A DNA stretch of 64,000 nt from Providencia alcalifaciens (lineage in GTDB: Bacteria; Pseudomonadota; Gammaproteobacteria; Enterobacterales; Enterobacteriaceae): the NCBI RefSeq assembly GCF_020271745.1, contig NZ_CP084296.1:3348001-3412000 (forward strand), read 5' to 3'. A program made the position numbers and the translations under genes. Position 1 is the stretch's first letter; each line of letters starts with the position of its first letter. Below, piece by piece: positions 23,904-29,155 of this stretch. The notes under the pieces are model-generated. The model worked only from the letters and a program-made list of their open reading frames with translations. It was not told where the DNA came from and searched no databases.

Positions 23904-24305
23904 TTATTGCATATTTATTTTTTAAATTTTTATGTGATTAGATAATGGTTACGCAGGGTATTATTTTTATTTATAACAAATAATTTACATTATCAAGTCT
24001 TTTAAGCGTAAATATCTCTTTACAGATGATTAATTTTTGAATTTTTGTGCCTGTCCACAAATCCGAACAAAATTAAGACGAGTTTGTTAATGTTTTAATG
24101 AAGATGGATTATATCTATAGACAAGTTGGCTAATTAACGGCTTGTCTACTACTGAATATAAGTTAAGGATATAAGTGTAGTCATATCATTAACAAGTTGT
24201 CATTCGACACAGACATCCCCCCGTTATTGCACTTTCCAATGATAATAAGTTGAGTAACTTAATGCAGCTGGTGCCAGCCAGTTGTAGTTTGAAGGTGTAG
24301 TGAGA
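23904..24305. other. Long leader and promoter region of tyrDC
   Basis: About 400 bases without a gene. It carries a near-perfect TyrR box (listed separately) and ends in a GAAGGT ribosome site. Short hairpins such as CTGG-TG-CCAG near 24269 were seen but not assigned. Confidence 0.5.
24007..24024 (+). promoter_or_regulatory. TyrR box upstream of tyrDC
   Basis: CGTAAATATCTCTTTACA matches the TyrR consensus TGTAAA-N6-TTTACA at 11 of 12 informative positions, including the essential G and C. It lies 282 bases before the decarboxylase start, and TyrR is the natural regulator for tyrosine genes such as tyrP. Confidence 0.7.
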
Positions 24306-26246
24306 ATGAATAATTTTAAAAATAAAAACATGAATGTAGATGCATTATTCCTCGGACCTAAATCTGAAAATGCGGTATTTTTCAGAGAAATGATGGAATA
24401 CGCAGTGACTGAGCATATGCATTGGCGTTCTGGTTATCATCCCGAAGATCCCGATTTAATTACTACCGTCGATAGATATGCACCGGAATATCGGGATACG
24501 TTATATCGTACTGAAGGTATCCTTAATCAGCTGTCCTCGAAATTAAAAACTACGTCAGTGCCTTGGTTTTCACCGCGTTACATGGGGCATATGAACGCAG
24601 ATACTCTGATGATCTCCAATCTCGCGTATGTCATGGCAATGATGTACAACCCAAATAACTGCGCTCAAGAATCTTCACCGACGACGACGGTATTAGAAAT
24701 CGAAGCTGGGTTAGATTTATGCGGTATGTTTGGGTATGACGTGCAAAAATCTTGGGGGCACATTACCTCTGGTGGCACAGTAGCTAACTACGAAGGGTTA
24801 TGGGTAGCAAGAAATATCAAAACCTTACCTTTAGCCATGGCATCCCATCCCCAAGCCAAACAACTTTTAACGAATGTTTCAGAAACCGCGTTACTGAATA
24901 TGCGTACCAGTGATGTACTGGATCTAATTGATGAATTGAAAAAACAAGGGTTGTTTGAAGAGATCCGTAATCTGACTTGCCGAGGCACCGGTGTTGAACA
25001 AGGTAAACTCGGTAAATTATTAGTGCCGCAATCCAAGCATTATTCGTGGATGAAAGCGATGGATATCTTAGGGTTAGGGCAGCAAAACATTGTTCAACTT
25101 CCCGTTGATAAACGTTATCGTACGGATGTTTCGCAAATGAGGGACATTGTTTTCTCATTGATTGAAAAGGGCGAGCCTATTCTTGCGGTGGTGGCTGTTG
25201 TTGGGACTACTGAAACAGGTGCTATTGATAATGTCGCTGAAGTCATCAAATTACGAGAAGAATGTGAACAACGTTATGGCGTTTCATTCTATGTGCATAT
25301 TGATGCCGCGTATGCAGGCTATGCCTGTGCGATGTTCCGTGATGAAAACAACCAATTCCTTGAATATGATGCACTTATTACGCGATACCATAACGAAGGG
25401 GTTTTCCCGCCAGATATCGTTTGGCCAAAACCCGATGTTTATCAAAGTTTCCGCGCTTTAAACCAAGCTGATTCCATCACAGTCGATCCGCATAAAGTCG
25501 GTTTTATTCCTTATGCGGCTGGGGCGATTTGTATGAAGGACAAACGCATTGTCGATTTGATTTCCTATCATGCGGCCTATGTGTTTGAAGAAGTGAAAGA
25601 AAGTAGCCGTAAAACCGATAAACAACAGAATGTATTATTGGGTTCATCAATTATGGAAGGCTCAAAAGCTGGCGCGACGGCAGCGGCAGTATGGGCTGCA
25701 CATCGGTTAGTTCCGCTGAACTTATTGGGGTATGGCAAAGTCATCGCAGCTGGGGTAACAACTGCCAATTGGATGATTGAAAGAATCAATGCCAGCAAGC
25801 CGTTTGTTATTGATGGACGTGAGTTTACATTGGCGGCGATGCCTGCACCGGATTTCCACATGATCAACTTTATGTTTAGGGAAACAGGAAATACCTCATT
25901 AGAGAAGCAAAACCAGTTAAATAAACGTTTGTATGAACTTTGCTCTTATGCGGCAGGACGTACTTATACGAATGATTTTTTAACGTCGTCAACATCACTA
26001 ACCTATGAAGAATACGGTGATAATCCTCAGAATTTGTGTCTAGAGGCGAATTTCAAGGAAGAGGAATGGCATAAAGTCCATTCAATTTATGTATTAAGGG
26101 CCGCAATTATGACCCATTGCCTGCGTGATAAACAGCACTTCGATAACTACTGGAATGAATTAAGAAACATCTTTGAAGACAAACTACAACAGCTCATTGA
26201 TGAAGAAAATAAACGTAATCATTCCATTCAAAAAGTTAGTGTTTAA
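24306..26246 (+). CDS. tyrDC: Tyrosine decarboxylase
   Basis: 646 residues from the ATG at 24306 (GAAGGT nine bases upstream; a GTG at 24300 is too close). PLP enzyme of the group II decarboxylases: HIDAAYAGYA and the Schiff-base lysine in ITVDPHKVGFIPY (K397). The N-terminal part (GHMNADTLMISNLAYVMAMMYNPNN, ESSPTTTVLEIEAG) resembles enterococcal TyrDC, longer than plant or animal AADCs. It makes tyramine and CO2 from tyrosine. The tyrosine permease follows after 22 bases. In Providencia such an operon produces tyramine that reaches animal hosts. Dopa or phenylalanine may be side substrates. Confidence 0.92.
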   Translation: MNNFKNKNMNVDALFLGPKSENAVFFREMMEYAVTEHMHWRSGYHPEDPDLITTVDRYAPEYRDTLYRTEGILNQLSSKLKTTSVPWFSPRYMGHMNADTLMISNLAYVMAMMYNPNNCAQESSPTTTVLEIEAGLDLCGMFGYDVQKSWGHITSGGTVANYEGLWVARNIKTLPLAMASHPQAKQLLTNVSETALLNMRTSDVLDLIDELKKQGLFEEIRNLTCRGTGVEQGKLGKLLVPQSKHYSWMKAMDILGLGQQNIVQLPVDKRYRTDVSQMRDIVFSLIEKGEPILAVVAVVGTTETGAIDNVAEVIKLREECEQRYGVSFYVHIDAAYAGYACAMFRDENNQFLEYDALITRYHNEGVFPPDIVWPKPDVYQSFRALNQADSITVDPHKVGFIPYAAGAICMKDKRIVDLISYHAAYVFEEVKESSRKTDKQQNVLLGSSIMEGSKAGATAAAVWAAHRLVPLNLLGYGKVIAAGVTTANWMIERINASKPFVIDGREFTLAAMPAPDFHMINFMFRETGNTSLEKQNQLNKRLYELCSYAAGRTYTNDFLTSSTSLTYEEYGDNPQNLCLEANFKEEEWHKVHSIYVLRAAIMTHCLRDKQHFDNYWNELRNIFEDKLQQLIDEENKRNHSIQKVSV

Positions 26247-26268
26247 TTAATTTTGTTAGGATCTCAAT

Positions 26269-27477
26269 ATGAAAAATCGCACACTTGGTAGTGTTTTTAT
26301 TGTTGCAGGTACTACGATCGGCGCTGGAATGTTGGCGATGCCAATTGCAGCGGGAAGTAATGGGTTTTCAGTCAGTTTGGTGATGTTATTTGGCCTGTGG
26401 GCGTTAATGTGTTACACCGCATTATTGTTGGTTGAAGTTTACCAGCATGAATCCCATGAAACAGGGATAGGTAGTGTTGCTCAGCGCTATTTAGGCTCGA
26501 GTGGGAAGTTCATCACAGGTTTCAGTATGATGTTTTTAATGTATGCTTTAACCGCCGCCTATGTGACGGGAGCAGGGCAAATCATTACCTCTAATCTGAA
26601 AGGTAGCTTTGCCATTGAAATGGCAGACTGGATGGGCATTGTCGTCTTTACCATCATTGGTGGTGGGGTGGTTTGCTTTGGTACTTCATCCGTCGATTTT
26701 ATTAACCGCATCTTATTTACTGCCAAGATTGTGTTCTTAGTGATCATTTTGGCGATGATGTTCCCACATGTTGAACAGTTAAATTTATTGTCAGCACCGA
26801 CTGATAAAATCCTGATCCTCGCGGCTATTCCTGTCTTTTTTACCTCATTTGGTTTCCACGGAAGTGTACCAAGTGTCGTAAAATATATGGGCGGTGATGT
26901 CAAAAAACTGCGTATTATCTTTATATTAGGAAGTGCGATCCCGCTAGTTGCCTACATTCTATGGCAAATCGCAACACTGGGCAGCATTGGCACGAATACC
27001 TTTGTGGGGATTTTAGCTGAGAACTCTGGGTTAAATGGATTATTGGAAGCCATTAAAGCGGTTGCGCAGTCAGGTAAAACTGAATTCGTCGCACAAATGT
27101 TTATGAGTTTAGCATTAGCCACATCATTCCTTGGGGTTGCGCTAGGCTTATTTGATTTCTTAGCCGACTTGTTTAAGCGCCAAGATAACGCATCAGGGCG
27201 TCTTCAAACTGGGCTGATTACCTTTTTACCTCCGCTTGTTTTCGCATTATTTTACCCGAAAGGTTTCGTGATGGCGTTGGGTTATGCGGCAATCGCGTTA
27301 TCTATCTTAGCGTTATTACTGCCAAGCGCGATGGCTCTGAAATCTCGTCATGTTAACCCTCGCAAATATCAAGTACTCGGTGGTAAGCCAGCATTAATGA
27401 TTGTGTTCCTATGTGGTGTTGCCGTTATCGGAATCCAGCTCGGTATTGTCTTCAAGGTTCTGCCTGATATTGGCTAA
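26269..27477 (+). CDS. tyrP: Tyrosine permease
   Basis: 402 residues (E. coli TyrP 403). HAAAP-family transporter with about 11 membrane helices; the N-terminal [21 protein letters not shown] loop is typical. It likely imports tyrosine for the decarboxylase upstream, perhaps exchanging it with tyramine, although the Gram-positive antiporter of this pathway belongs to another family. Start: ATG after TTAGGATCTCAAT. Confidence 0.9.
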
Positions 27478-27504: not shown

Positions 27505-27536
27505 AAAGCCAGTTCTCTCGCAGAACTGGCTTTTTT
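27505..27536 (+). terminator. tyrDC-tyrP terminator
   Basis: Perfect 12-base stem AAAGCCAGTTCT / AGAACTGGCTTT with a T-run, 27 bases after tyrP. Confidence 0.9.
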
Positions 27537-27598
27537 CACTTACAGGGATCACTAAAAACACTTTTTGTACGCTTAGACGTTAATTTTCTCGCTATCAT

Positions 27599-27617
27599 AA
27601 TGATAATGGTTATCATT
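27599..27617 (+). promoter_or_regulatory. Fur box upstream of padR-like gene
   Basis: AATGATAATGGTTATCATT is a dyad (8-3-8). It matches the 7-1-7 Fur motif TGATAAT-N-ATTATCA with one mismatch. It lies 110 bases before the PadR start and should give iron repression. Confidence 0.7.
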
Positions 27618-27636
27618 AGCACGTAATGATAAAAAC

Positions 27637-27726: not shown

Positions 27727-28323
27727 ATGGACAATCCAAAAAACCTCGATACATGTCTATGTGAGGGGAAAAGTGTTCGACGCATGTTTAATCCAAAACA
27801 ACTGCGTATTTATATTTTGCATTTACTCTCAGGTGGCGTGAACTATGGTTATGAATTGATAAAAAAAATCAGTGAGGAAACAGCAGGATTTTATTGTCCA
27901 AGCCCCGGTGTGATTTATCCGACACTGACATTACTGGAAGAACTGGGTTTTATTTCAACCAGTAAGGAAACGGGCAAAGGGCGAAAATGTTTTGTGATCA
28001 CACCAGAAGGTCGCTGCTTTTTACTTTTAAAAGCTCACATTCTGGCTGAAGTTAAAATGAAGCTAAATTATGCACAAGAGCTGAAAGCAGGTAACCAATT
28101 CGCCAATGAAATTGAGTTAGCGGTCGATAAATTCAAATCATTACTCCGGCATAAAATTGTGTTACAGCAGTTATCGAAACAAGAATCTACCCAAGTGGTG
28201 GATATTATCAACCAAGCCGTGAAGCGAATTGAGCAAGTGAACGAGGCGCTATTAGTATCCGAAAATAACGTCATCTCGGAAAATAATGCCGTTTTAGAAG
28301 AGAACGCAGTAGAAGGAAAATAA
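27727..28323 (+). CDS. PadR-family regulator, YqjI-like
   Basis: 198 residues. PadR winged helix at about 24-100 (LLSGGVNYGYELIKKISEET, SPGVIYPTLTLLEELGFI) and a long helical C-terminus rich in Asn and Glu. The SPGVIYPTL motif and layout resemble E. coli YqjI, a metal-responsive repressor of the ferric reductase gene yqjH. Its N-terminus is short and has only C10 and C12 (TCLCEG) instead of the His/Cys-rich tail of YqjI. A Fur box lies upstream. No yqjH-like gene is adjacent; a 72-residue protein is coupled after it. Ribosome site GAGAG. Confidence 0.82.
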   Translation: MDNPKNLDTCLCEGKSVRRMFNPKQLRIYILHLLSGGVNYGYELIKKISEETAGFYCPSPGVIYPTLTLLEELGFISTSKETGKGRKCFVITPEGRCFLLLKAHILAEVKMKLNYAQELKAGNQFANEIELAVDKFKSLLRHKIVLQQLSKQESTQVVDIINQAVKRIEQVNEALLVSENNVISENNAVLEENAVEGK

Positions 28324-28719: not shown

Positions 28720-28965
28720 TTAGATCTCTAGTAAAGTTTGAATTCGTTTCATTTGCTCAATCCACTGCTGCTGAAAAAGATCATCTTCATGAGAATGATT
28801 TGAGCCTTTTCAGAAATTAAACTGGTTTGACTCTTTTCCAATTTGTTTTCTGAGAAGGCGGATTGTTTCTCTATCTTCTGGTAAATCCCTTCCAGACCCA
28901 GATACTCTTCCAAGCGATTATTATGAATACACCAATAACGCGAACGGCTGACCGTAATAACTTAC
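28720..28965 (-). pseudogene. Unidentified decayed gene fragment
   Basis: On the minus strand one frame reads VSRSRYWCIHNNRLEEYLGL and continues through IEKQSAFSENKLEKSQ; after a one-base frame change it continues SHEDDLFQQQWIEQMKRIQ to the stop codon at 28720-28722. Two coherent, glutamate/glutamine-rich stretches in different frames suggest a frameshifted C-terminus without a start. The parent protein was not recognised. Confidence 0.4.
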
Positions 28966-29155
28966 GGAAATTGTAGGATGAAACTTTAGCTGTGTTTCAT
29001 AACGCAGATCATTCACTCCATTTATCTGTTGCTGAGAGTCATTTGTTATAAATCATTCTTATAATGGCGTTACTTTGGTGAATAAAACTGCTGAGCGTTA
29101 GGGTTTAGCGCCATCGATGGTTAAAATTGAGCCTCAAACAACAAGAGAGATAATA

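Follow-up and report, generated by a model that had tools for sequence, protein, structure and literature searches.

How does Providencia decide on the production of tyramine? The gut-clearance flow in Bactrocera dorsalis was attributed in a 2024 study to the tyramine of P. rettgeri (PMC11697180), in agreement with the remark of an earlier sequence-only reading of this DNA that Providencia tyramine affects animal hosts, while the literature searched contains no description of how Providencia decides on tyramine production. The window analysed here, a stretch of 64,000 nucleotides from Providencia alcalifaciens (contig NZ_CP084296.1, positions 3,348,001 to 3,412,000), carries the tyrosine decarboxylase gene tyrDC followed by a tyrP gene (Table 1). 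Our answer, to which we assign a probability of roughly 0.6, is that the tyrDC-tyrP genes of Providencia are controlled in two layers, with TyrR acting on transcription and a structured leader gating translation.

The two genes are arranged head to tail on the + strand with a gap of 22 bp and are an operon with a predicted terminator behind tyrP, as the sequence-only reading had claimed for the operon; the terminator was read by eye and was not reported by the automatic terminator scan. The conserved start of tyrDC is the ATG at 24306, in place of which the ORF program starts at the GTG at 24300. TyrDC is scored at 647 bits by TIGR03811 (tyr_de_CO2_Ent), below the NCBI equivalog cut-off of 905, and at 124 bits by the Pfam model tyr_de_CO2_C (cut-off 27), and it aligns over its full length, PLP lysine motif DPHK included, with the solved decarboxylases 7cwx and 5hsi. 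The permease of the operon reaches 644 bits with the TyrP equivalog NF011711 (cut-off 482) and is a paralogue, 62% identical, of a canonical tyrP located elsewhere in the genome. Together, the genes would constitute an operon for tyrosine-to-tyramine decarboxylation and exchange. In Gram-positive bacteria (Enterococcus, Lactobacillus, Staphylococcus) a homologous decarboxylase, about 41% identical, is likewise followed by a tyrosine/tyramine exchanger; to our knowledge these hosts have no TyrR and control the genes by other means. The tyrDC gene is found in all 24 Providencia genomes, three of which carry in-frame stops in it (G011, G018 and G019), and the gene order quinone oxidoreductase, tyrDC, tyrP is common to Providencia, Moellerella and Photorhabdus, which argues for a chromosomal and old locus. 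Viral and phage collections returned no relatives of the locus, and plasmids only distant homologues (≤65%).

Table 1. Predicted and annotated features of the tyrDC-tyrP locus, in positions of the window
Feature	Position	Strand	Description
Upstream conserved element	23972-23989	+	TATAACAAATnnTTTACA (TATAAC-AAATAA-TTTACA)
Strong TyrR box (predicted)	24007-24024	+	CGTAAATATCTCTTTACA (CGTAAA-TATCTC-TTTACA), 11/12
Inverted repeat	24044-24061	+	TTTGT-N8-ACAAA; conserved in Providencia, Moellerella and Photorhabdus
Putative promoter core	24087-24115	+	-35 TTAATG (24087-24092), 17 bp, -10 TATATC (24110-24115)
Hairpin H1	24118-24148	+	24118-24128 with 24138-24148, at the predicted 5' end
Structured leader RNA	24121-24305	+	about 185 nt; fold z-score -3.5
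Long-range helix P6/P7 (proposed)	24135-24226	+	P6, 24135-24140 with 24221-24226; P7, 24143-24147 with 24211-24215
SD-sequestering helix H3 (predicted)	24228-24299	+	UGCACUUUC (24228-24236) with GAAGGUGUA (24291-24299), extending to 24224/24303
Small hairpin H4	24246-24261	+	nested within H3
Hairpin H5	24263-24286	+	5' of the Shine-Dalgarno; best covariation support
Shine-Dalgarno (SD) of tyrDC	24291-24297	+	GAAGGTG, conserved
tyrDC	24306-26246	+	PLP-dependent tyrosine decarboxylase, 646 aa
tyrP	26269-27477	+	tyrosine permease/exchanger, 402 aa
Intrinsic terminator 3' of tyrP	27505-27536	+	AAAGCCAGTTCT-CTCGC-AGAACTGGCTTT-TTT, read by eye

The predicted TyrR box, which ends 281 bp ahead of the ATG of tyrDC, agrees with the consensus TGTAAA-N6-TTTACA at 11 of 12 positions and keeps the essential G-N14-C (G at 24008, C at 24023). 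A strong TyrR box has been defined by at least 10 matches and an invariant G and C 14 bp apart (PMC4374768), and the site belongs to this class both by its match count and by its G-C pair. By chance, 64 kb should contain 0.65 sites with one mismatch or none, and half of the shuffles contain at least one; the whole genome holds 18, most falling inside genes, compared with 24 for the reversed pattern used as a control, and thus shows no enrichment. A match of 11/12 is therefore at chance level without comparative evidence and, since the match by itself is not significant, the case for the box is built on its conservation. When the region upstream of tyrDC was aligned across the 24 Providencia genomes, the box ranked first among all 18-mers, with 98.8% identity against a regional mean of 76% and against 47% in the 44 bases immediately 5' of it, a result that confirms the 11/12 box singled out by the sequence-only reading. 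It is retained upstream of tyrDC in 24/24 genomes; 23 of them contain a single copy of the exact motif, with zero control matches, and the remaining genome differs in the spacer only. The six spacer bases are as strictly conserved as both arms. TyrR itself needs no conserved spacer in its box, so another constraint may act on these bases.

The genome encodes a single TyrR orthologue, which scores above the cut-off and matches the TyrR-type structures 2jhe (1-185) and 1g2h (460-515), corresponding to the ligand and HTH domains. Boxes of the same consensus and grammar are present at aroF-tyrA, a standard TyrR target (TGTAAACTTATCTTTACT and TGTAATTTTTTATGTACA), and at the canonical tyrP (TGTAATTTATTATTTACA and TGTAATTCAGATTTGACA, with a spacing of 23 bp), but at these targets the sites are either two boxes near the gene or a strong and a weak box separated by 23 bp, whereas tyrDC has one strong box and, 35 bp upstream of it, an element without the essential G. 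Taken together, the conservation of the box, the single orthologue and the boxes at known targets support the proposal that TyrR would control tyrDC-tyrP. No comparable box is found upstream of tyrDC in Photorhabdus, Chromobacterium and most Xenorhabdus and Photobacterium loci, and in Moellerella the strong box has decayed; TyrR is present in the tested Photorhabdus and Moellerella genomes. By this comparison of sequences, the tyrDC box is specific to Providencia and is no general property of tyrDC operons. The comment that TyrR control is not commonly stated for tyrDC also held, as no paper connecting TyrR with tyrDC was found in the literature searched; the text of a reconstruction of TyrR regulons in the Proteobacteria lists genes for biosynthesis, transport and degradation and mentions no tyrosine decarboxylase (PMC5343134).

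Strong boxes before genes that consume aromatic amino acids or products of these are familiar from tpl of Citrobacter, ipdC of Enterobacter cloacae and stlA of Photorhabdus. TyrR activates tpl and ipdC. The stlA gene is activated by TyrR through a box that, like that of tyrDC, has one mismatch (PMC3838401), and a TyrR orthologue is likewise present. The tyrDC case differs from these three in that the target is tyrosine decarboxylation, the box is farther from the inferred start and a structured leader follows.

A putative promoter core is contained in the block TTAATATTTTAA...TATAYCTAT (about 24087-24118), which is common to Providencia and Photorhabdus and was not picked up by the consensus promoter scan; transcription is expected to start near 24121. 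The centre of the strong box would then be ~106 bp 5' of the start, and 74 bp (about 7 turns) from the centre of the putative -35. A box ~106 bp from the start would be farther away than at tyrP or ipdC, which counts against the model. Two other promoter candidates were rejected, a sigma-54 promoter GG-N10-GC at 24128-24141, whose spacing varies in the L085/L091 group as read from the alignment, and a box-proximal promoter TTGTGC-N17-CAAAAT at 24045-24073, which is not conserved. The sequence-only reading had thought it likely that either the leader is long or another, weak box exists, and both guesses find support. A leader of ~185 nt is predicted; as to the second box, a conserved element is present 35 bp upstream of the strong box (centre to centre) and matches the TyrR consensus at 10/12 positions, but its essential G is replaced by A. 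Moellerella keeps this element while the strong box is lost, and with the G missing as well the element is doubtful as an ordinary weak TyrR box and may serve a role other than TyrR binding. Between box and promoter lies the inverted repeat, the sole full match to TTTGT-N8-ACAAA in the genome, which is probably the site of a further regulator; its centre would fall near -69 relative to the inferred start. A location near -69 is a usual one for an activator.

Downstream of the expected start, the leader of the window folds at -53.8 kcal/mol, with a z-score of -3.5 against dinucleotide shuffles, and its covariation score is 0.237, compared with 0.154 when shuffled and 0.03-0.10 when slid. Leader pairs were judged against a covariation null in which the phylogeny and each branch's substitutions are retained. 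In hairpin H5, both partners of a pair changed in a compensatory way five times on the tree, its best pairs having E-values of 3.4e-4 and 0.012, and the leader has a conserved structure backed by this covariation. Hairpin H1 is broken in several species; when its partners were permuted among species, none of 300 permutations reached the score of the true pairing, and its per-pair covariation is weak (E 0.27) and suggestive only. The structured leader had been missed by the sequence-only reading, and it may be the newer part of the locus to be described, more so than the TyrR box.

The second most conserved block upstream of tyrDC, CACTTTCCAATGATAATAAG, is predicted to pair with the Shine-Dalgarno. 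Inside Providencia this anti-SD helix H3 shows no covariation because it is nearly invariant there, and Moellerella retains it through changes of C-G to U-A and of U-G to C-G. Most species have a high predicted pairing of the SD, the few with low or partial pairing being L082, L090 and L094, and from these folds the leader may hide the ribosome site of tyrDC. A long-range helix, P6/P7, is mutually exclusive with H1 and might be extended by GUUGG (24125-24129) pairing with CCAAU (24237-24241). P6 is nearly invariant, and P7, which is retained in species that lost H1, changes in step between clades (UGUCU/AGACA, UGUUUAU/AUAAACA, GCAUGUCU/AGACAUGU and GUGCUU/AAGCAC); with a per-pair E-value of 0.08, suggestive only, and with the partners of some rows fitted by hand, P6/P7 stays a proposal. 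When each state is forced, the SD-closed fold has the better energy in most species (in the window, -53.9 versus -36.9 for P0+P6), whereas in the L082-L084/L094 group the two states are roughly level or the order is inverted. The predicted anti-SD strand and the proposed competing upstream helix would be shared with translational riboswitches, the alx-type pH element and SpeFL-type leaders. The tyrDC leader differs from such SD-sequestering leaders in that the window has no Rfam family at gathering score and the leader matches no described family, no conserved ORF is found in it, and it is seen only at tyrDC of two genera, since a covariance model of its 3' part retrieved only Providencia and Moellerella tyrDC leaders among 392 family genomes. 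Photorhabdus leaders, when aligned, are without the Providencia anti-SD block and for this reason were not pooled.

The two-layer reading, in which the data bear out the gene content, the conservation of the box, the presence of TyrR and its other targets, the covariation of H5 and the stability of the fold, can be set out as follows, the inferred steps being TyrR binding, its direction, the start site, the gating of the SD and the signal. In the first layer, TyrR with bound tyrosine or phenylalanine would occupy the strong box, helped or modulated by the upstream element, and would act on the promoter starting near 24121 to activate transcription, while the older inverted repeat, common to Photorhabdus, probably binds another activator. 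In the second layer, UGCACUUUC would cover the Shine-Dalgarno within the ~185 nt leader in most species, and the competing 5' helix P6/P7 may open or reset the SD-closed fold, tyrosine, acid pH and a small RNA being the candidate signals. From the conserved TyrR site one would predict that tyrDC levels are governed by the tyrosine and phenylalanine of the diet or the host, and from a leader that may conceal the ribosome site, that tyramine passes another gate, independent of the first; both control layers, if true, would connect what the host eats with what the bacterium senses and with a neuroactive product.

Where the first layer is concerned, the alternatives bear on the direction of TyrR action and on the identity of the protein that binds the box. 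TyrR might be a repressor that keeps tyrDC silent, release coming with low tyrosine or with the displacement of TyrR by another activator, a reading that draws on the repression of most biosynthetic targets by E. coli TyrR with tyrosine (PMC5343134), and on the spacing of 35 bp between element and box, which could allow looping. We regard repression as unlikely, given that the catabolic targets tpl, ipdC and stlA are activated and that at the canonical tyrP a separate strong-weak pair is retained beside the promoter; moreover, activation is the more likely direction because the box, ~106 bp upstream of the start, does not overlap the inferred promoter. It is rather improbable that the conserved 18-mer is the site of another regulator and resembles a TyrR box by chance: both invariant arms fit TyrR in sequence (11/12) and in spacing, the operon in question serves tyrosine catabolism, and the genome has TyrR together with targets of the validated type, even though the N6 spacer is conserved like the arms, sites with one mismatch or none occur genome-wide at chance level, and Moellerella has TyrR and keeps the upstream element, yet not the strong box.

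As to the second layer, it is possible, if somewhat doubtful, that TyrR control acts alone and that the leader is an ordinary 5' UTR of some length, its hairpins shielding the mRNA and no switch being involved. Stabilising hairpins typically sit where H1 (the predicted 5' end) and H5 (beside the SD) are placed, no covariation of the SD helix is seen among Providencia genomes, and some species are predicted to have a partly open SD; a plain UTR is harder to reconcile with the fact that CACTTTCCAATGATAATAAG, second in conservation, is predicted to pair with the SD in a helix kept by compensatory change in Moellerella, and that P7 changes in concert between clades. At the other extreme, the leader might bind tyrosine (or tyramine) directly as a new class of metabolite-sensing RNA, which we hold to be quite improbable, and the same low credence attaches to the corresponding switch between an SD-closed fold (H1 and H3) and an open fold held by P6/P7. 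If this were true, two sensors of one substrate, TyrR and an RNA, would together set the output of tyramine. We know of no tyrosine riboswitch, our literature search for one returned no paper, and the tyrDC leader would be the first if it senses tyrosine. Almost no credence is given to a leader peptide sensing tyrosine in the manner of TnaC or SpeFL. The candidate, MKMDYIYRQVG (ORF 24100-24135), has two Tyr codons in a short ORF directly before H1, and it was rejected since neither its start nor its frame is conserved, the ATG being missing in L080, L084, L085 and others, and since its Tyr codons coincide with the -10 common to Photorhabdus.

By itself, the TyrR motif is weak evidence, as its two perfect consensus matches in the genome illustrate: one is between convergent genes (L112:1256-1273) and one at G000:C1:2936684-2936701, and neither lies at a known TyrR target. 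In Moellerella (loci L008 and L097), the strong TyrR box ahead of tyrDC has been lost, despite the presence of TyrR, and the upstream element, TATAACAATTCATTTACATCATCAAG, is retained. A putative regulator site, the inverted repeat TTTGT-N8-ACAAA, is common to the upstream regions of tyrDC in Providencia, Moellerella and Photorhabdus, and a search of the genome returned no further exact copy.

Features around the tyramine operon (window positions)
Feature	Position	Strand
Inverted repeat, upstream of tyrDC	24044-24061	
Fur-box-like palindrome, TAATGATAATGGTTATCATTA	27598-27618	
PadR-family regulator, YqjI-like	27727-28323	
Broken frame	28749-28913	minus
Broken frame	28921-29016	minus

In-frame stop codons interrupt tyrDC in three of the Providencia genomes, namely G018, G019 and G011 (loci L087, L094, L095 and L096), which may reflect loss of tyramine production in some lineages or, alternatively, assembly errors.

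Downstream of the operon, the Fur-box-like palindrome precedes the PadR-family regulator gene and suggests its iron-linked control. Between 28550 and 29110 neither strand contains a long ORF, and the two broken frames within this interval look like a decayed gene.
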